The notes beneath the pieces were generated by a model. The model was given only the letters and a program-made list of their open reading frames with translations, did no database searches and was not told where the DNA came from. Shown here piece after piece: positions 7,252 to 56,348 of a stretch of 64,000 nucleotides of DNA. The stretch lies in the NCBI RefSeq assembly GCF_003058055.1, contig NZ_QBTZ01000001.1:1118501-1182500 (forward strand). The letters are read 5' to 3'. The DNA is from Acidovorax sp. 107 (GTDB taxonomy: Bacteria; Pseudomonadota; Gammaproteobacteria; Burkholderiales; Burkholderiaceae_C). Both the position numbers and the translations under genes were made by a program. The first letter of the stretch is position 1. The number at the start of each line of letters is the position of its first letter.

Positions 7252-7968
7252 ATGATGAAAAATACTACCAAATTGATAGCTATATGCTCAATGATTACCT
7301 GCGCTAGCGGCGTTTTTGCCCAAAATGCACCCGCCCCTGAGCTGCGCAACGTGGTGCAGCTGTCGGCCACGGGCACGGTGGAGGTGCAGCAAGACCTGCT
7401 GGTGCTCAACCTTGCCACCAGCAAGGAGGCCGCCGATGCCGCTACCGTACAAACCCAACTCAAGCAGGCGCTGGATGCTGCACTGACCGAGGCAAAGCGC
7501 AATGCGCAGCCCGGACAGCTGGACGTGCGCACCGGTCCGTTCGGGCTTTACCCACGCTACGGCAAGGACGGCAAGATCAACGGCTGGCAGGGACGTGCCG
7601 AACTGGTGCTGGAGGGGCGTGACTTTGCACGCATCACGGCCACTGCCGGCAAGATTCAGACCCTGACCATCAGCCAGGTCGCGTTTGGCCTGTCGCGCGA
7701 AGCACGCGCCAAGGTGGAGTCCGAGGCACAGACCCAGGCCATCGAGCAGTTCAAGGCCCGTGCGGCCGAGCTGGCCAAGGGTTTTGGATTTGCCAACTAC
7801 AGCCTGCGCGAAGTGGCCGTGAACAGCAATGAGATGTCGCCCGGCCCTCGGCCCCGCATGATGGCCGCCGAGGCCAAGGCGGCGTCTTTTTCAGACTCTG
7901 CCGTGCCGGTCGAAGCGGGCAAGGCCCAGGTCACGGTGAACGTGTCGGGCTCGGTGCAGATGCGCTGA
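7252..7968 (+). CDS. Exported SIMPL-domain (DUF541) protein
   Basis: A 238-aa secreted protein with a SIMPL/DUF541 domain: VVQLSATGTVEVQQDLLVLNL at the start, WQGRAELVLEGRD in the middle, and AKVESEAQTQAIEQFKARAAELAKGFGF towards the end. Homologues are periplasmic or outer-membrane oligomeric proteins of unclear function, some linked to oxidative stress. The ATG at 7252 has aagga 7 bases upstream. The signal peptide (cleavage after GVFA-Q) is encoded almost entirely by a copy of the dispersed repeat found elsewhere in the window, which is unusual. Confidence 0.85.
   Translation: MMKNTTKLIAICSMITCASGVFAQNAPAPELRNVVQLSATGTVEVQQDLLVLNLATSKEAADAATVQTQLKQALDAALTEAKRNAQPGQLDVRTGPFGLYPRYGKDGKINGWQGRAELVLEGRDFARITATAGKIQTLTISQVAFGLSREARAKVESEAQTQAIEQFKARAAELAKGFGFANYSLREVAVNSNEMSPGPRPRMMAAEAKAASFSDSAVPVEAGKAQVTVNVSGSVQMR
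7268..7326 (+). repeat. Dispersed palindromic repeat, copy 1 (inside a signal-peptide coding region)
   Basis: It carries the family core aattgatagct, an A/T-rich middle, gcgctagcggc and the tail ttgcccaaaatg. It lies wholly inside the SIMPL gene, codons about 7 to 25, and is read in frame as KLIAICSMITCASGVFAQ. Confidence 0.7.
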
Positions 7969-8000
7969 GGCCCCTGCGCCACTGGGTGAGGCCTGTTTGA

Positions 8001-8055
8001 AGTAAAAATGGCTGCAAGCGCTAGTGCAATAAGCGCTGGCAGCTATCAAAAATAG
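8001..8055 (-). repeat. Dispersed palindromic repeat, copy 2
   Basis: Well-conserved copy between the convergent SIMPL and bdhA genes. Read on the minus strand it gives tttgatagctgccagcgctt, attgcactagcgcttgcagc and catttt. The two arms gctgccagcgctt and agcgcttgcagc form a hairpin. It may double as a transcription terminator. Confidence 0.75.
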
Positions 8056-14734: not shown

Positions 14735-14792
14735 TTGCTATCTAATTAATAGCAATACGCCCATGGCGCACTAGCGCATGGGCTTGAAACCA
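14735..14792 (+). repeat. Dispersed palindromic repeat, copy 3
   Basis: Begins at the last base of the rimO stop context. It reads tgctatctaattaatagcaa, tacgcccatggcgcactagc and gcatgggcttgaaac. Two nested palindromes are present: gctatctaattaatagc, and gcccatg with catgggc around cgcactagcg. Confidence 0.65.
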
Positions 14793-15568: not shown

Positions 15569-16717
15569 TTACCGTTTTTCGGCGACAAAGCCCAAAAGTT
15601 GCGCCACAAGGTTGTCTTGCGTCAGCAGGCGTGCACGGGCCGCCCGGGTGCAGCGCGTCCACTCGGCCAGGGTGTTGTCGTCGGGCCATTGCAGCGGCGC
15701 GGCGTCCAGCCCGTTCCAGGTGGCGTGGAATCGCCGCAGCGACTCAGGGGCTTGCAGCCAGTCCAGAAAGGCCCAGAGCTTGTCGTGGTGGGCGTTGTCA
15801 TGCTGGGGGTAGATGTGCCACACAAACGCCTGCCCGGCCCACAGTGCGCGCACCAGAGAGTCCTCGCCCCGCACGGCGTTGAAGTCGCAGGCCCACAGCA
15901 TCTCGTCAAACGCCGCCTGGGGCCGGTGGGGAAGGAAGGACATGGACAGCAGCCCCTGCTGGCCGTGCAGGGGTTGTCGCTCCTGATCGCCCTGGGTCTC
16001 GGCCAAGGCGGCCCGCACTGCGGCGGCCGGGCGGCCGGGCGTGACCAGCAACTGGGTGGGCCGCAATGCGCATTGGCGCAGCAGGTCGGCCAGCGCGGGG
16101 GGCTCGTAGCAAAACAGCGACACCCAGCGCGTGCCCGGTGTCTCGTCGCCCATGCCAAACTGGGCCCGGTGCTCCGCGCGCCATGCGCTGCGATCAAACG
16201 CCTCGCGCTGCTCCATCAAGTGGGGCTCGCGCAGCAGGCCGCCGGTGCCGGCGGTAAAGCCGGGGTAGAAGAACCAGCGCGTCCACCCCGACGCCGGGCC
16301 CGACAGGATGGGCGAGGGCAGGCGGTGAGTGCGCTCCACGTAGGCCTCGGCAGACAGGTATTCCAGGTTGATCCAGACAGGTTTTGGGCATTTTTGGCCA
16401 GAAGCGCTAGTGGAATATGCGCTATATGCTATGAATTCGGGAGCAATGTCGCAGCCGAACGCCTCCACCATCACGTCGGGTGGCGGTTCGTTCGGGCCCG
16501 GCGGTGGCGTGCCCCAGCGTTTTACTTCCACACCGGGGCAGCCCTCCGGGGTCATCCATTCCAGCGCCGATGCATCGTCCACCCACAGGCGCACGCGGTG
16601 CCCCAGGCCCGCCAGCTGCGCCACCAGGCGCCAGCACACGCCGATGTCGCCAAAGTTGTCGATCACGCGGCAGAACACGTCCCATTGCAGGGCGGCGAGG
16701 GGGCGGTGCATGGTCAT
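15569..16717 (-). CDS. earP: EF-P arginine-32 rhamnosyltransferase
   Basis: A 382-aa GT-B glycosyltransferase transferring rhamnose from dTDP-rhamnose to Arg32 of EF-P. Marks include [19 protein letters not shown] at the N-terminus (conserved N and D residues of the acceptor site), [26 protein letters not shown] and the nucleotide-binding part [23 protein letters not shown]. The start overlaps the stop of the upstream LysR gene by four bases. Residues about 108-126 ([19 protein letters not shown]) come from a dispersed repeat and extend the loop before [10 protein letters not shown] compared with the enzymes I remember. Confidence 0.93.
16385..16437 (-). repeat. Dispersed palindromic repeat, copy 4 (inside earP)
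   Basis: On the minus strand it reads gaattcatagcatatagcgc, atattccactagcgcttctg and gccaaaaatgcc, matching the family consensus. It is in frame and contains no stop, so earP remains open. Confidence 0.7.
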
Positions 16718-18971: not shown

Positions 18972-19948
18972 ACGTACCCAGCACCGTTTGGCAAGGCGCA
19001 GGCCGCCGCATCCACATGCAGGAAGTGGGCCTGCGCGACGGACTGCAGATGGAGAAGACCTTTGTTTCCACCGAAGACAAGATCGCGCTGTGCAATGCGC
19101 TGTCGGCGGCAGGGCTGTCCAAGATCGAAGTGACCTCATTCACATCGCCCACCGCCATCCCCGCGCTGAAAGACGCCGAGATCGTGATGCGCGAGATCAC
19201 GCGCCGCCCTGGCACGGTCTACACGGCGCTGGTGCCCAACTTGCGCGGGGCAGAGCGTGCCATCGAGTCGCGCACGGACGAGCTGAACCTGGTCATGTCC
19301 GTCAGTGCCACCCATAACCTGGCCAACCTGCGCATGACGCAGGAGCAGTCGTTTGCGGCACTGGCGCAGGTGGTGGCCCTGGCGCAGGGCGCCAACGTGG
19401 CAGTGAACGTGTCGCTGTCGTGCGTGTTCGGCTGCCCCATGGAAGGCGATGTACCCGAGGCCAATGTGTTTGGCTGGGTGCAGCGTTTTGTGGACCTGGG
19501 CGTGCGCGGCATCACGCTGTGCGACACCACGGGCATGGCCTACCCCACGCAGGTGCACCAGCTCACGGCGGCAGCCCGCGCGCGCTGGCCGGGGGTGGAG
19601 TTCACCCTGCATTTCCACAACACGCGGGGCATGGGGCTGGCCAATGTGCTGGCGGCCATCGACGGGGGTGCTGACCGGTTCGATGCGTCGCTGGGTGGCC
19701 TGGGCGGTTGCCCCTACGCGCCGGGCGCCAGCGGCAATGTGTGCAGCGAAGAGATCGTGCACGCGCTGGCGCTGATGGGTTATGACACGGGCGTGGACCT
19801 GGCCCGGTTGGTGGCCGCCGCGCAGCAGTTGCCTGCGCTCATCGGCCACGACATTCCGAGCCAGATCGCCAAGGCGGGGCCGCGCTTGACGCTGCACCCG
19901 GTGCCTGCCGATTTCGATGCCATCCGCGAAAGAGCGCTGTCCCGCTGA
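18968..19948 (+). CDS. Hydroxymethylglutaryl-CoA lyase-like enzyme
   Basis: A 326-aa TIM-barrel DRE-metallolyase. Present are QEVGLRDGLQMEK (catalytic Arg-Asp), SCVFGCPMEG, CDTTGMAYP, metal-ligand HFHNTRGMGL and the glycine loop GGLGGCPYAPGASGNVCSEE with its catalytic cysteine. It fits HMG-CoA lyase. Coupling to a CoA-transferase instead of a leucine pathway suggests it may cleave another 3-hydroxyacyl-CoA, such as a citramalyl- or methylglutaryl-type thioester. That substrate is inference. Confidence 0.88.
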   Translation: MNVPSTVWQGAGRRIHMQEVGLRDGLQMEKTFVSTEDKIALCNALSAAGLSKIEVTSFTSPTAIPALKDAEIVMREITRRPGTVYTALVPNLRGAERAIESRTDELNLVMSVSATHNLANLRMTQEQSFAALAQVVALAQGANVAVNVSLSCVFGCPMEGDVPEANVFGWVQRFVDLGVRGITLCDTTGMAYPTQVHQLTAAARARWPGVEFTLHFHNTRGMGLANVLAAIDGGADRFDASLGGLGGCPYAPGASGNVCSEEIVHALALMGYDTGVDLARLVAAAQQLPALIGHDIPSQIAKAGPRLTLHPVPADFDAIRERALSR

Positions 19949-19993
19949 AAGCGGGCGCGCCTGCATCCCCCATCACCACAGGAGACAAAAACC

Positions 19994-22034: not shown

Positions 22035-22048
22035 CCGAGGGGCGGTGT

Positions 22049-22110
22049 TTTTGATCAAAATGGCTGCCAGCGCTAGTTGAATAAGCGCTGGCAGCTATTT
22101 ATTTGATAGT
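22049..22110 (-). repeat. Dispersed palindromic repeat, copy 5
   Basis: The best conserved copy. The minus strand gives ctatcaaataaatagctgcc, agcgcttattcaactagcgc and tggcagccattttgatc. The arms gctgccagcgct and agcgctggcagc are a perfect 12-bp inverted repeat around tattcaact. It lies between the last Bug gene and uvrC. Confidence 0.8.
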
Positions 22111-24768: not shown

Positions 24769-24816
24769 TTTGATGCCTAAGGCGCTTGATAGATCAGCGC
24801 AGGCAGCTATATTTTC
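24769..24816 (-). repeat. Dispersed palindromic repeat, copy 6
   Basis: The minus strand reads gaaaatatagctgcctgcgc, tgatctatcaagcgccttag and gcatcaaag. It ends only a dozen bases before the next start codon, so it forms most of that gene's 5' leader. Confidence 0.6.
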
Positions 24817-29487: not shown

Positions 29488-31227
29488 ATGCCACACAGCG
29501 TCACGCTGATCCACACCATTGCTGCCGCCCTCGGCTTGGCGTTGGTGTTGGGTTTTCTGGCGGCCCGTCTGCGGCTGCCGGCGCTGGTGGGGTATCTGCT
29601 GGCGGGGGTGGCCATTGGACCGTTCACTCCCGGTTTTGTCGCGGATGCGGCCCTGGCCAGCCAGCTGGCGGAGATCGGCGTGATGCTGCTGATGTTTGGC
29701 GTGGGCCTGCATTTTTCGTGGGGCGACTTGCTGGCGGTGCGCAAGATTGCCGTGCCGGGTGCGGTTGTCCAGATGATCGTGGCGACATCTCTGGGCATGG
29801 CGCTGGCCACGTGGTGGGGCTGGGGCGCGGGTGGGGCCCTGGTGTTTGGCCTCGCACTGTCGGTGGCCAGCACGGTGGTGCTGCTGCGTGCGCTGGAGAC
29901 CCTGGGCATTCTGGATAGCTACACCGGGCGCATTGCGGTGGGCTGGCTGGTGGTGGAGGACTTGGCCATGGTGCTGGTACTGGTGCTGCTGCCACCGCTG
30001 GGGGGATGGCTGGGCGGCAGCGCGGGGGCAGACCTGGATGCTGCGCAGCTCTGGCGCACGCTGGGGTGGACTCTGCTGCAGGTCGGCGGGTTTGTGGCGC
30101 TGATGCTGCTGGTGGGGCGCAGGCTGTTTCCTTGGCTGCTATGGCAAGTGGCACGCACCGGATCGCGTGAGCTGTTCACGCTGTGCGTGGTGGCCGCGGC
30201 GGTGGGCATAGCGTTTGGATCGGCCGCGCTGTTTGGTGTGTCGTTTGCGCTGGGGGCCTTCTTTGCAGGCATGGTCATGCGCGAGTCCGAGTTCAGCCAC
30301 CGTGCGGCGCACGAGTCTCTGCCCTTGCGCGATGCCTTTGCGGTGCTGTTTTTTGTGTCGGTCGGCATGCTGTTCAACCCTGCGGTCTTGTGGGAGCGGC
30401 CGCTGCAGGTGCTGGCGGTGGTCGTCATCATCATGCTGGGCAAGACGGTGGCCGCTGCCGGCCTGGTGCTGGCGTTCCGGTATCCACTCAACACGGCGCT
30501 CACCGTGTCAGCCAGCCTCGCGCAGATCGGTGAGTTTTCATTCATTCTGGTTGCGCTGGGCTCCTCTTTGGGACTGCTGCCGCCAGAGGGTGCCAGCCTG
30601 GTGTTGGCGGGGGCTCTGTTCTCCATGGCGCTCAACCCGTTGTTGTTCCGTGCCATCGCCCCGTTGCAAGACTGGCTGCGTGCCCGGTCCGCGTTGGCCA
30701 GGCGGTTGGAGCAGCGCGATGACCCTTTGGCCGAACTCCCGACGAGCACTGATTCGCGCTACCTCGCGCGGCAGGTGGTGCTGGTGGGGTATGGCCGGGT
30801 AGGGCGGCGCGTGGCGGCAACGCTGGCGGCCAATGACATTCCGTTTGTGGTGGCGGAGCAGAACCGAGAGCTGGTGGAGGCTTTGCGGGCCGATGGCGTG
30901 GCGGCCGTGTTTGGTGATGCGGTGGAGCCGGCCGTGCTGATCCAGGCGCACATTGCGCGGGCCGCCATGCTGGTGGTGGCTACACCGGACGCACTGCAGG
31001 TGCGCCAGATGATCGAGACGGCGCAGACCCTGAACCCGGGCATCGACATCGCGGTGCGCAGCCACAACGAGGACGAGGCCCAGCGGCTGGTGCAGGAGTT
31101 CAGCCATGCCCAGGTGTTCCTGGCGGAAGATGCCCTGGCCCAGGCGATGTCACGCCATGTGCTGGAGCGCGCAAGGGATCGGCAGGCGCTTGCCACCCGG
31201 CCAGCACCCCTGCATGGACCGGCATGA
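29488..31227 (+). CDS. Kef/YbaL-type monovalent cation:proton antiporter (CPA2)
   Basis: A 579-aa inner-membrane protein. The N-terminal Na+/H+ exchanger domain has about 12 hydrophobic segments (for example IHTIAAALGLALVLGFLAAR, LAEIGVMLLMFGVGLHF). At residues about 430-550 lies a TrkA-N/RCK NAD-binding domain (QVVLVGYGRVGRRVAATLAANDIPFVVAEQN). Such proteins exchange K+ or Na+ for protons, often in response to electrophiles. ATG 29488 is chosen; an earlier in-frame start adds eleven residues without hydrophobic character. Closest to YbaL/RosB by architecture. Confidence 0.9.
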   Translation: MPHSVTLIHTIAAALGLALVLGFLAARLRLPALVGYLLAGVAIGPFTPGFVADAALASQLAEIGVMLLMFGVGLHFSWGDLLAVRKIAVPGAVVQMIVATSLGMALATWWGWGAGGALVFGLALSVASTVVLLRALETLGILDSYTGRIAVGWLVVEDLAMVLVLVLLPPLGGWLGGSAGADLDAAQLWRTLGWTLLQVGGFVALMLLVGRRLFPWLLWQVARTGSRELFTLCVVAAAVGIAFGSAALFGVSFALGAFFAGMVMRESEFSHRAAHESLPLRDAFAVLFFVSVGMLFNPAVLWERPLQVLAVVVIIMLGKTVAAAGLVLAFRYPLNTALTVSASLAQIGEFSFILVALGSSLGLLPPEGASLVLAGALFSMALNPLLFRAIAPLQDWLRARSALARRLEQRDDPLAELPTSTDSRYLARQVVLVGYGRVGRRVAATLAANDIPFVVAEQNRELVEALRADGVAAVFGDAVEPAVLIQAHIARAAMLVVATPDALQVRQMIETAQTLNPGIDIAVRSHNEDEAQRLVQEFSHAQVFLAEDALAQAMSRHVLERARDRQALATRPAPLHGPA

Positions 31228-31230
31228 TTT

Positions 31231-31289
31231 GAAGAGAATCTGCCTCTTGTGCTAGAAAAATATGCCTGAATAGCTATCTAATTGATAGC
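31231..31289 (-). repeat. Dispersed palindromic repeat, copy 7
   Basis: The minus strand reads gctatcaattagatagctat, tcaggcatatttttctagca and caagaggcagattctc. It starts 3 bases after the antiporter stop codon. Diverged in the second arm. Confidence 0.6.
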
Positions 31290-48853: not shown

Positions 48854-49351
48854 TTATTTGTTGCGGGGCAACACGGTGATGGTCCCGGTCATGCCAGCCT
48901 GGTAGTGGCCGGGGATGAGGCAGGCAAAGTCAAAGTTGCCCGCGCGGTTGAAGTGCCACACGATGTCGCCGGCCTTGCCTGCCGCGACATGGGCCATGTA
49001 GGGTGCGTCGTGTTCCATGCCGGGGTGCTTTCTCATCAGCTCGGCGTGCTGCTCCAGTTCGGCCTGGGTGCCGATCACGATCTCGTGCAGCACCTGGCCC
49101 CGGTTGGTCGCGCGCAGCCGCACGGTGTCGCCTTCGCGCACTTCGATGTGGCTGGGTGAAAAGCGCATGTCGTCGCCCATGCGCACGGTGATGGTGCGGC
49201 GCACGGCCTTGGCATCGCCTGCAATGCCCCAGTCCTTCTGCTCCTTGACCACCGGGGCTGCGGTGGCGTGGTGGGGCATGTTTTCATGCCCAAAAGCGGT
49301 GAATGCGCCAGTGCATATTGCGCATGCTGCTATAAATTTGATAGTTTTCAT
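48854..49351 (-). CDS. Cupredoxin-domain copper protein
   Basis: A 165-aa exported protein with a cupredoxin fold: DDMRFSPSHIEVREGDTVRLRATNRGQVLHEIVIG, and the C-terminal copper loop FDFACLIPGHYQAGMTGTI providing Cys, His and Met, with the first His in LHEIV. The ATG at 49351 gives the signal peptide, which is encoded by a dispersed repeat (KFIAACAICTGAFTAFG), in the same frame as in the SIMPL gene. It lies between the oxidase and DUF411 genes and probably shuttles or buffers copper. Confidence 0.88.
   Translation of the reverse strand: MKTIKFIAACAICTGAFTAFGHENMPHHATAAPVVKEQKDWGIAGDAKAVRRTITVRMGDDMRFSPSHIEVREGDTVRLRATNRGQVLHEIVIGTQAELEQHAELMRKHPGMEHDAPYMAHVAAGKAGDIVWHFNRAGNFDFACLIPGHYQAGMTGTITVLPRNK
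49291..49347 (-). repeat. Dispersed palindromic repeat, copy 8 (inside a signal-peptide coding region)
   Basis: The minus strand reads aactatcaaatttatagcag, catgcgcaatatgcactggc and gcattcaccgcttttgggca. It covers codons 2-20 of the cupredoxin gene, read in the same frame and orientation as copy 1. Confidence 0.68.
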
Positions 49352-53913: not shown

Positions 53914-54068
53914 GGGCAGAGTGCAGGGGAATAGAGGCGGGGCGTGCCGCCCCCAGGGCAAACAGGCGCGCGCAAGCGATGGATTGAACCACGCAAGCTC
54001 TATGCCGGCCTTGTCGTGCGTCAAATGGCGGGTAGCGGGCTGCCAGGCACACAGCAGCCATCGACTCC

Positions 54069-54122
54069 TGAATTGATAGCTGTCAGGGCATGAAAATCAA
54101 GCGCTACCGCCACTTTTTTGCC
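54069..54122 (+). repeat. Dispersed palindromic repeat, copy 9 (covers the 3' end of a gene)
   Basis: It reads tgaattgatagctgtcaggg, catgaaaatcaagcgctacc and gccacttttttgccc, close to copy 10. The minus-strand gene for the SRPBCC-DUF3703 protein ends inside it, so the last eight or so codons and the stop come from the repeat. Confidence 0.68.
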
Positions 54123-54978
54123 CAATTTTGGGCGGAGGCAGGCTGGCAGCCGCCATCGCTTCGTTGATCAACCGTGTGACGCGCGGCTGCGGCGCCATGG
54201 GCACCAGGGCACTCACCCGTGCCCGGCCGGTGTTGCCGATGGGCAGCCGCGCCAGTGTGTGCCCCAGCGGCACCAGGGCCAGCCGCAGCCTCTGTCCACC
54301 GGCCTCGCGCATGTCCCGCAACTGCAGTGCGTAGCGCAGCATGGCCGTGTGCGACCGCCAATGCAGGGACAGCGTGGTCTGCCCCAGCACATGCGCGGCC
54401 TCTAACCAGCGCCAGCGGGTGGCAGAGGGCGCGCCGGCGTCGCTCGCAAACGCTGCCAACAGGTGGTCGAATGCGCGCTGCGTGTGCAAGGGGTCAGCCA
54501 TGGGCTCCGCCGCGTGGCGCGCCGCCAGTTGGCGCCAGCGCCGTTGTCGGTGCCGGTAGAACACCTGGGCAAACGCCGCGCTCAGGGGCGTCATCAGCCA
54601 GGGCAGGTGGCGCGCGACCACGTCAATGTCGTCGGTGTAGAGCGTGCGACCACTAGGCAACGGCTGCAGCGTGATGCGGTGGTCCCAGCGCCGCATCAGC
54701 GTGCCCTCGCCGTTATCGCGCAGCGTGGGCCAGGCGCCGGCCTGCGCGGGGGGCTCGACGGAGATGCGCACGGTTTGGGTGCCCAGGGGCAGCAACCCCA
54801 GCAGCCGCATCTGCAACGGCAGATCCCCGGGAGACCAGTGGGTGGGCCAGGGTGCGCCGCCGGGGCGCTTGAACCGCACCAGCGGCGCCGTGATGTGGCG
54901 GAACACTGCAGTGCTTTGCAGTTGCGCAGCCACCCATTCGGGCGGTGCATTGAGCGGGGTGGACAGGCGTACGCGCAT
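54097..54978 (-). CDS. SRPBCC-like domain fused to DUF3703
   Basis: A 293-aa protein. Residues 1-155 look like a START/SRPBCC ligand-binding domain (MRVRLSTPLNAPPEWVAAQL, DHRITLQPLPSGRTLYTDDI, FAQVFYRHRQRRWRQL). Residues 163-280 match DUF3703 (RAFDHLLAAFASDAGAPSAT, WLEAAHVLGQTTLSLHWRSH, LPIGNTGRARVSALVPM). DUF3703 is normally a separate small protein in metal-resistance loci. It begins 3 bases after the CDF transporter stop and is cotranscribed with it. Its C-terminus lies in a dispersed repeat. Function unknown. Confidence 0.75.
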   Translation of the reverse strand: MRVRLSTPLNAPPEWVAAQLQSTAVFRHITAPLVRFKRPGGAPWPTHWSPGDLPLQMRLLGLLPLGTQTVRISVEPPAQAGAWPTLRDNGEGTLMRRWDHRITLQPLPSGRTLYTDDIDVVARHLPWLMTPLSAAFAQVFYRHRQRRWRQLAARHAAEPMADPLHTQRAFDHLLAAFASDAGAPSATRWRWLEAAHVLGQTTLSLHWRSHTAMLRYALQLRDMREAGGQRLRLALVPLGHTLARLPIGNTGRARVSALVPMAPQPRVTRLINEAMAAASLPPPKIGQKSGGSA

Positions 54979-56224: not shown

Positions 56225-56287
56225 ATTTGCTATTTAATTGATAGCTTCTCAGGCATATCCTTCTAGCGCTACCGCCCAAAAATGGCC
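56225..56287 (+). repeat. Dispersed palindromic repeat, copy 10
   Basis: It reads gctatttaattgatagcttc, tcaggcatatccttctagcg and ctaccgcccaaaaatggccc. It lies between the merR gene and the permease gene. Confidence 0.75.
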
Positions 56288-56348
56288 CAACTATCTCCCG
56301 AAGCCTGCCATGGGCTGCCCTAGCGCATGCCCCCGCTATGATCCGCCC

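Follow-up and report, generated by a model that had tools for sequence, protein, structure and literature searches.

A palindromic repeat of Comamonadaceae as the probable source of signal-peptide-coding segments in unrelated genes

Rickettsia palindromic elements are palindromic repeats that lie within unrelated protein-coding genes and are not known to be specialised as signal peptides. Here, we analysed a 64,000-nucleotide stretch of the Acidovorax sp. 107 genome (contig NZ_QBTZ01000001.1, positions 1,118,501 to 1,182,500; hereafter the window), in which the predicted signal peptides of two unrelated proteins, a cupredoxin and a SIMPL protein, match copies of a palindromic Comamonadaceae repeat. 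Like the Rickettsia elements, this repeat is palindromic and found within unrelated protein genes. We conclude that, very probably, copies of it have on several occasions turned into the part of unrelated genes that codes for the signal peptide.

For enterobacterial RU repeats, passages of Delihas 2007 (PMC2759123) describe homologues in other genera with unrelated signal peptides, and a predicted signal peptide in YE2643 with RU-1f. On these passages, the Yersinia RU repeats are individual precedents for repeat-derived signal peptides. The cases presented there are individual loci, mainly of small putative proteins, and were obtained by prediction, whereas the Comamonadaceae repeat is found in conserved known families and many genera, and was put to a test of frame and orientation.

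Among its potential novel motifs, a 2017 survey (PMC5217627) lists GCTTAT(N)5AAGCG in Acidovorax ebreus (114 copies, 5 in genes) and ATAGCT(N)22CAAAAG in Polaromonas naphthalenivorans (125 copies, 18 in genes). Its motif section treats location, gene orientation and distance and leaves signal peptides unmentioned. These motifs are apparently the same repeat as that of Acidovorax sp. 107 (hereafter the host): the first was present in 43/450 loci examined here, including the cupredoxin signal-peptide segments of L011, L012, and L014. Repetitive extragenic palindromic (REP) sequences and bacterial interspersed mosaic elements, as portrayed in parts of PMC2817692, resemble the host repeat: over 100 short palindromes are present in a genome, mainly between genes. 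Open-access searches found no literature linking the Comamonadaceae repeat with signal peptides. The kind of event is known from individual cases; what we take to be new is that it recurs, involves a broad range of families, and extends over many genera.

Signal peptides in the window and in the host genome

At the sequence level, a preliminary description of the window had aligned the cupredoxin signal peptide with that of SIMPL in DNA, orientation, and reading frame, and our analysis bore this out. The cupredoxin starts with MKTIKFIAACAICTGAFTAFG, then HENMPHH, and SIMPL with MKNTTKLIAICSMITCASGVFA, then QN. With K-L/F-I-A as the anchor of the alignment, the DNA segments are identical in 34/54 bases; third codon positions, 18 in all, account for 10 of these identities. 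With nhmmer, both copies were matched in the orientation of their own gene (the seed included the SIMPL copy). For scoring, we used a matrix (A1) of 12 repeat copies, none from a signal peptide and neither cupredoxin nor SIMPL among them: the cupredoxin segment reached 36.2–36.7 bits, and the SIMPL segment 32.1–32.7 bits.

Convergent hydrophobic codon use, the objection raised in the preliminary description, did not account for these scores. Protein-preserving recodings of the cupredoxin segment reached the observed score in 0/1500 cases with genome codon use, 0/1500 with uniform use, and 8/1500 with strongly AT-biased use; for SIMPL, 0/1500 did so under any of the three. Shuffling the codon order gave 0/1500 for both. 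Since recodings and codon shuffles rarely or never reached the scores, the match exceeds convergent codon use. On sequence grounds, we regard the cupredoxin signal peptide as confirmed to be a diverged repeat copy.

The host genome (5.11 Mb, two contigs) was sampled at even intervals in 40 stretches of 20 kb each; together with the window, the sample amounts to 864 kb. Genes were classed as signal-peptide-like by a home-made rule (positive N-terminus, hydrophobic core, and small-x-small cleavage site or lipobox). Six of the 173 signal-peptide-like genes scored at least 25 bits, all of them in one sense frame, named K-L-I-A after its reading; the next score was 14.9. They code for the cupredoxin, SIMPL, an M16 peptidase, an SLT_2 transglycosylase –presumably MltB-like–, SCO1, and the GspD secretin (scores in Table 1). 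None of the 173 reached 25 bits in the other five frame and orientation configurations, and none of the 596 other host genes reached 22 bits in the K-L-I-A configuration with alternative starts allowed (highest 19.2). The difference between 6/173 and 0/596 is significant (Fisher test, p = 1.2e-4). Enrichment in one frame and orientation, proposed as a genome-wide check in the preliminary description, was thus found in this sample of the host genome, and found again in relatives.

Two control genomes gave no such cases. G042, from another family of the order, had no repeat match of at least 10 bits in 400 kb and 0/92 signal-peptide-like genes at 25 bits or more (highest 21.1 in the K-L-I-A frame). 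G073, from another genus of the family, had 22 repeat matches in 800 kb and 0/172 such genes, the highest scores being 15.4 in the K-L-I-A frame and 21.8 in an antisense one; its SCO1, outside the sample, scored 27.8 bits. Together, this makes 0/264. We set the cut-off at 22 bits and treated 16–22 as ambiguous, since scores of up to 21.8 were seen, in one configuration or another, for signal-peptide-like genes of these controls.

Two of the six host genes lie in the window, which had been chosen beforehand. Outside it, 4/150 signal-peptide-like genes in 800 kb extrapolate to about 26 genes per genome (95% interval 7–65). The proposal of a genome-wide mechanism for making exported proteins is supported as to the enrichment, and what it describes is a minority route. 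The support does not extend to the making of new exported proteins: the users found come from conserved families with known export, and their signal peptide varies among relatives.

A seventh host user, located outside the sample through orthology, is an ABC-transport auxiliary lipoprotein (start G000:C1:3525314, 28.2 bits). Pfam assigned users of the host type to SCO1-SenC, Secretin with GspD N0, Peptidase_M16, SLT_2, and ABC_trans_aux. All six sampled genes have Sec signal-peptide features under the home-made rule, and SCO1 and the ABC auxiliary lipoprotein carry a cysteine lipobox. To judge by these Pfam families and lipoboxes, the repeat-headed proteins are probably exported. For five of these genes (cupredoxin, SIMPL, SCO1, GspD, and M16), the start given by a simple gene caller lay downstream of the repeat-coded part; gene callers that rely on codon use may thus misplace the starts of repeat-headed genes.

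The repeat element and its reading frames

The repeat is an imperfect palindrome of about 60 bp, mostly intergenic and found in Comamonadaceae, with the left end AAATTGATAGCTGCC... A sequence model gave at least 150 scored matches in the host genome, from 2738 first-look candidates. The 864-kb sample held 88 matches of at least 10 bits, against 0 on the reversed sequence; 63/88 were intergenic by simple gene calls. It is REP-like in being a short palindrome with more than 100 copies, mainly intergenic, and the palindrome folded for the two intergenic copies tested. Unlike REP sequences with a REP-associated tyrosine transposase (RAYT), the repeat does not flank the host's one PF01797 (Y1_Tnp) gene: the best match in its 3.3-kb locus had 3.3 bits. 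RAYT-driven mobility was dropped on these grounds. An Rfam scan of the window at the gathering threshold returned five tRNAs only, and the repeat had no Rfam match.

Read in one frame, the element gives K-L-I-A-A-S-A-x-x-x-S-A. With its lysine, a brief hydrophobic run, and motifs of the small-x-A type, this reading comes near to the requirements of the Sec translocase and signal peptidases. Among 44 intergenic copies of at least 25 bits, this frame was open over 16 codons in 24; 20 of these 24 had a small-x-A motif and 10 an uncharged hydrophobic nonamer. Two antisense frames were open in 31 and 23 copies, with hydrophobic nonamers in 7 and 5, and are used in none of the six host signal peptides. 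The remaining three frames were open in 0, 9, and 2. The preliminary description had spoken of a ready-made secretion signal, which fits in part: the frame is open in 24 of the 44 copies, and the two signal-peptide copies of the window, unlike the two intergenic copies tested, fold no better than shuffles.

The signal-peptide-like character of intergenic copies –the open K-L-I-A frame and its small-x-A motifs– would also suit the reverse direction, in which the repeat derives from a signal-peptide-coding segment that spread. Against this, most copies are intergenic, and folding was better than in shuffled sequences for both tested copies of the intergenic type (z -2.7 and -7.7) but for neither of the signal-peptide copies of the window (z -0.6 and -0.8). 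We consider an origin of the repeat from a signal peptide highly improbable.

Relatives and the origin of the repeat-coded segments

Among the cupredoxin orthologues of the genus, 27/32 (host included) scored 25.5–54.7 bits and one 19.0. This count omits the paralogues or outgroups L377–L386, L389, and L390, and L387 and L388, which duplicate L038 and L037. The best orthologue covers nearly the whole element, and orthologues are often clearer than the window copy. L037, L038, L375, and L376 scored 9.7–12.2 bits; their signal peptides are different ones, and the coding DNA is GC-rich in the two cases viewed. The cupredoxin N-termini of the Acidovorax loci L280 and L241 equal those of G010 and G009 over the part compared. 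Seven cupredoxin paralogues (L379, L380, L381, L382, L384, L386, and L389) have peptides like MKRTLSLIAASALVALSFNSFA and reach 8.9–11.4 bits in the K-L-I-A frame. They are a natural control: alike as protein, yet low in repeat score, they argue against convergence.

Several other users were surveyed among relatives. SCO1 was matched in 60/60 genomes of the family; among the best 30, one per genus, 9/30 scored at least 22 bits in frame and 17/30 at least 16. In surveys of 30 genera, GspD gave 6/30 and 11/30 at these two thresholds, and M16 13/30 and 21/30. The ABC auxiliary lipoprotein was matched in 45/47 genomes of the genus; of the best 30 loci, 25 scored at least 22 bits, one 20.0, and four 8.2–9.5. 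The four come from G063, G005, G031, and G069, large-genome species of the genus with 0 or 1 ATG-repeat pattern matches each; G005 and G031 lack the repeat in the cupredoxin too. Thus, for several user proteins, the same mature part carries a repeat-coded signal peptide in some relatives and a repeat-free one in others.

The TTG that follows AAA is often replaced in SCO1, M16, and the ABC lipoprotein, by AAC/AAT (K-N-I-A), ACG/ACA (K-T-I-A), or AAG/AAA (K-K-I-A). This variation perhaps tunes the charged start region.

We also searched for loci by sequence pattern; the scores of loci chosen by a pattern that holds the repeat core are inflated. Among the 80 titled pattern matches listed, at least 18 loci were titled as Comamonadaceae, including Acidovorax, Polaromonas, Rhodoferax, Curvibacter, and Simplicispira; 13/18 open an open reading frame of at least 60 aa, and 5/18 show no plausible gene of such a kind. 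The pattern lay in the K-L-I-A frame in 16/18 of them, against 30/62 of the other-titled loci (p = 0.0025). Users among these titled relatives were a Polaromonas periplasmic binding protein, CusF, DUF1775/PCuAC, Metal_resist, SIMPL, cupredoxin, and a Rhodoferax protein that resembles the host M16 peptidase. By Pfam, four families are additional to those of the host: Peripla_BP_6, Metal_resist, CusF_Ec, and DUF1775 with PCuAC (DUF1775 is presumably YcnI).

Within the genus, most of the ATG-plus-repeat pattern matches followed up were set aside as repeat, chance ATG, and short frame, not genes. About 22 new stop-free in-frame candidates were hand-picked among the matches listed and 20 examined, and plausible exported products among the 20 were SCO1 (L081, L093), SIMPL (L084, L087), cupredoxin (L090), and the ABC auxiliary lipoprotein (L052).

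A lysine, hydrophobic residues, and A-x-A, together with AT-rich early codons, might resemble the repeat by chance. The K-L-I-A frame is indeed common in the other-titled matches listed above, and strongly AT-biased recodings reached the observed score in 12/2000 cases for cupredoxin, 6/2000 for SCO1, and 1/2000 for GspD. None of 2000 did so for SIMPL, M16, or SLT_2, nor for any of the six host genes under genome codon use. Moreover, the six host genes stand at 31–51 bits, far from the next score and from the signal-peptide-like genes of the two control genomes, and the match of cupredoxin orthologues extends over nearly the entire element whereas that of the paralogues stays low. We rejected convergent hydrophobic codon use as the sole cause on the recodings, the host scores, and the paralogue control, and give it almost no credence.

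The repeat and its signal-peptide uses share DNA sequence, frame, and orientation across several unrelated families, and peptides with and without the repeat are found on the same mature protein. The recurrent recruitment suggested from two genes in the preliminary description now extends to six host genes, a seventh by orthology, and four more families in relatives. We infer that the donor was the repeat and that it arrived through insertion or gene conversion/recombination. Either inserted or brought in through recombination between copies, the repeat would end up behind a start codon in the K-L-I-A frame and replace an existing signal peptide. Selection would then preserve the reading frame, leaving the hairpin free to decay.

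Several findings weigh against repeated recruitment of the repeat. Many survey scores fall in the ambiguous range, and the rule for signal-peptide-like genes was loosened after nhmmer showed that its first version missed the M16 and SLT_2 cases (4/156 genes at 28–37 bits, next 14.8, in the first version). The AT-biased recodings that reach the cupredoxin, SCO1, and GspD scores, and the K-L-I-A share in unrelated genomes, count on the same side. Stops account for part of the frame preference, because one sense frame of the intergenic copies is never open, and the two antisense frames are open about as often as K-L-I-A. Among the 596 non-signal genes, two have antisense copies (59.4 and 38.9 bits) upstream of the called start, with alternative starts allowed. 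DUF934 proteins open with the repeat in the K-L-I-A frame at 24.9 bits, in a non-signal gene of G073, and at 30.5 bits; DUF934, which is not known to be a secreted family and is presumably cytoplasmic, is not obviously exported and departs from the use of the repeat in signal peptides only. At the one intergenic site compared, that of the copy at 22046, a search for empty sites found none: this copy looks old because it is present at the same place in 30/30 loci of the genus. Its presence in all of these loci and the failure to find a flanked transposase speak against simple mobility. Finally, the SCO1 and cupredoxin trees do not separate gain from loss.

These trees are also compatible with one origin per gene: a single old recruitment, after which the segment was inherited vertically and often lost, while recent recruitment was rare or absent. 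The same register within the genus for cupredoxin, SIMPL, and the ABC auxiliary lipoprotein, a cupredoxin version shared with a Curvibacter locus, and the age of the tested intergenic copy point the same way. Even so, the unrelated families would need one recruitment each, and SCO1 of L158 and L162 matches elsewhere relative to the start (18.9 and 19.1 bits, both weak). We regard a single old recruitment per gene as quite possible, at somewhat under an even chance.

A more far-reaching idea, which we find doubtful, is that Comamonadaceae have in the repeat a permanent reservoir of signal peptides that renews itself, with intergenic and coding copies exchanging by gene conversion. If so, tens of exported proteins per genome would share an exchangeable cassette evolving in concert, one that conserved proteins, the type II secretin among them, could gain or lose by swapping.

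The origin and rapid change of signal peptides are seldom traceable in DNA. With recruitment from the repeat, the putative donor is still recognisable in many copies, and many genera and known protein families are at hand in which to trace and test how a targeting signal originated. A mostly intergenic repeat would thereby gain a concrete evolutionary use.

Other copies of the repeat

The copies of the window, the repeat-coded signal peptides of the host sample, and two DUF934 genes are collected in Table 1.

Table 1. Genes and repeat copies of the window (positions within it), repeat-coded signal peptides of the host sample, and DUF934 genes of two further loci
Feature	Position	Strand	Repeat score (bits)	Remarks
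SIMPL (DUF541) gene	7255..7968	+		PF04402
Repeat copy coding SIMPL signal peptide	7268..7331	+	32.7	Sense K-L-I-A; frame and orientation as in cupredoxin
Repeat copy	7992..8051	-		Intergenic, directly downstream of SIMPL; hairpin fold
Weak partial repeat copy	14741..14777	+	13.7	
Repeat copy	16383..16439	-		Within called open frame, possibly wrong gene call
Repeat copy	22046..22106	-		Intergenic, between two genes; strong palindrome
Weak partial repeat copy	24781..24810	-	16.2	
Repeat copy	31225..31284	-		More diverged; outside called genes
Cupredoxin gene (plastocyanin/azurin family, 165 aa)	48854..49351	-		PF00127, E 4.4e-9; adjoins multicopper oxidase gene
Repeat copy coding cupredoxin signal peptide	49287..49341	-	36.7	Sense K-L-I-A; diverged copy
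Repeat copy	54068..54130	+		Overlaps 3' end of a gene
Repeat copy	56233..56294	+		Close to gene end; gene call uncertain, open frames on both strands
M16 peptidase signal peptide			50.6	Sense K-L-I-A
SLT_2 transglycosylase signal peptide			33.6	Sense K-L-I-A
SCO1 signal peptide			33.3	Sense K-L-I-A
GspD secretin signal peptide			31.3	Sense K-L-I-A
DUF934 gene	L277:7514-7933	-		Repeat at start, K-L-I-A frame; protein begins MTMKLIAANAH...
DUF934 gene	L172:18059-18439	-		Repeat at start, K-L-I-A frame; protein begins MKIIAAHEH...

The copy at 22046–22106 showed apparent paired changes in the palindrome across the loci of the genus, as judged by eye, and may have a function such as termination.

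Repeat copies were also seen in or next to other genes. An antisense copy at L116:19756-19812 (26.6 bits) lies in a gene (19214-19987, minus strand) for a SpoU-family RNA methyltransferase, where it codes for a stretch at about residues 60–80, ahead of the catalytic domain: FWLQAQVEYAQAATKFIV. At L133:16705-16757, a copy of 35.8 bits is in frame close to the C-terminus of a called gene of 924 aa. Antisense copies at L097:574-627 and L130:18873-18933 sit directly upstream of a gene start or overlap it; the peptides listed for them are MKFEAILFDCDG... and M(NM)EAKTVAVVDYGMGN...
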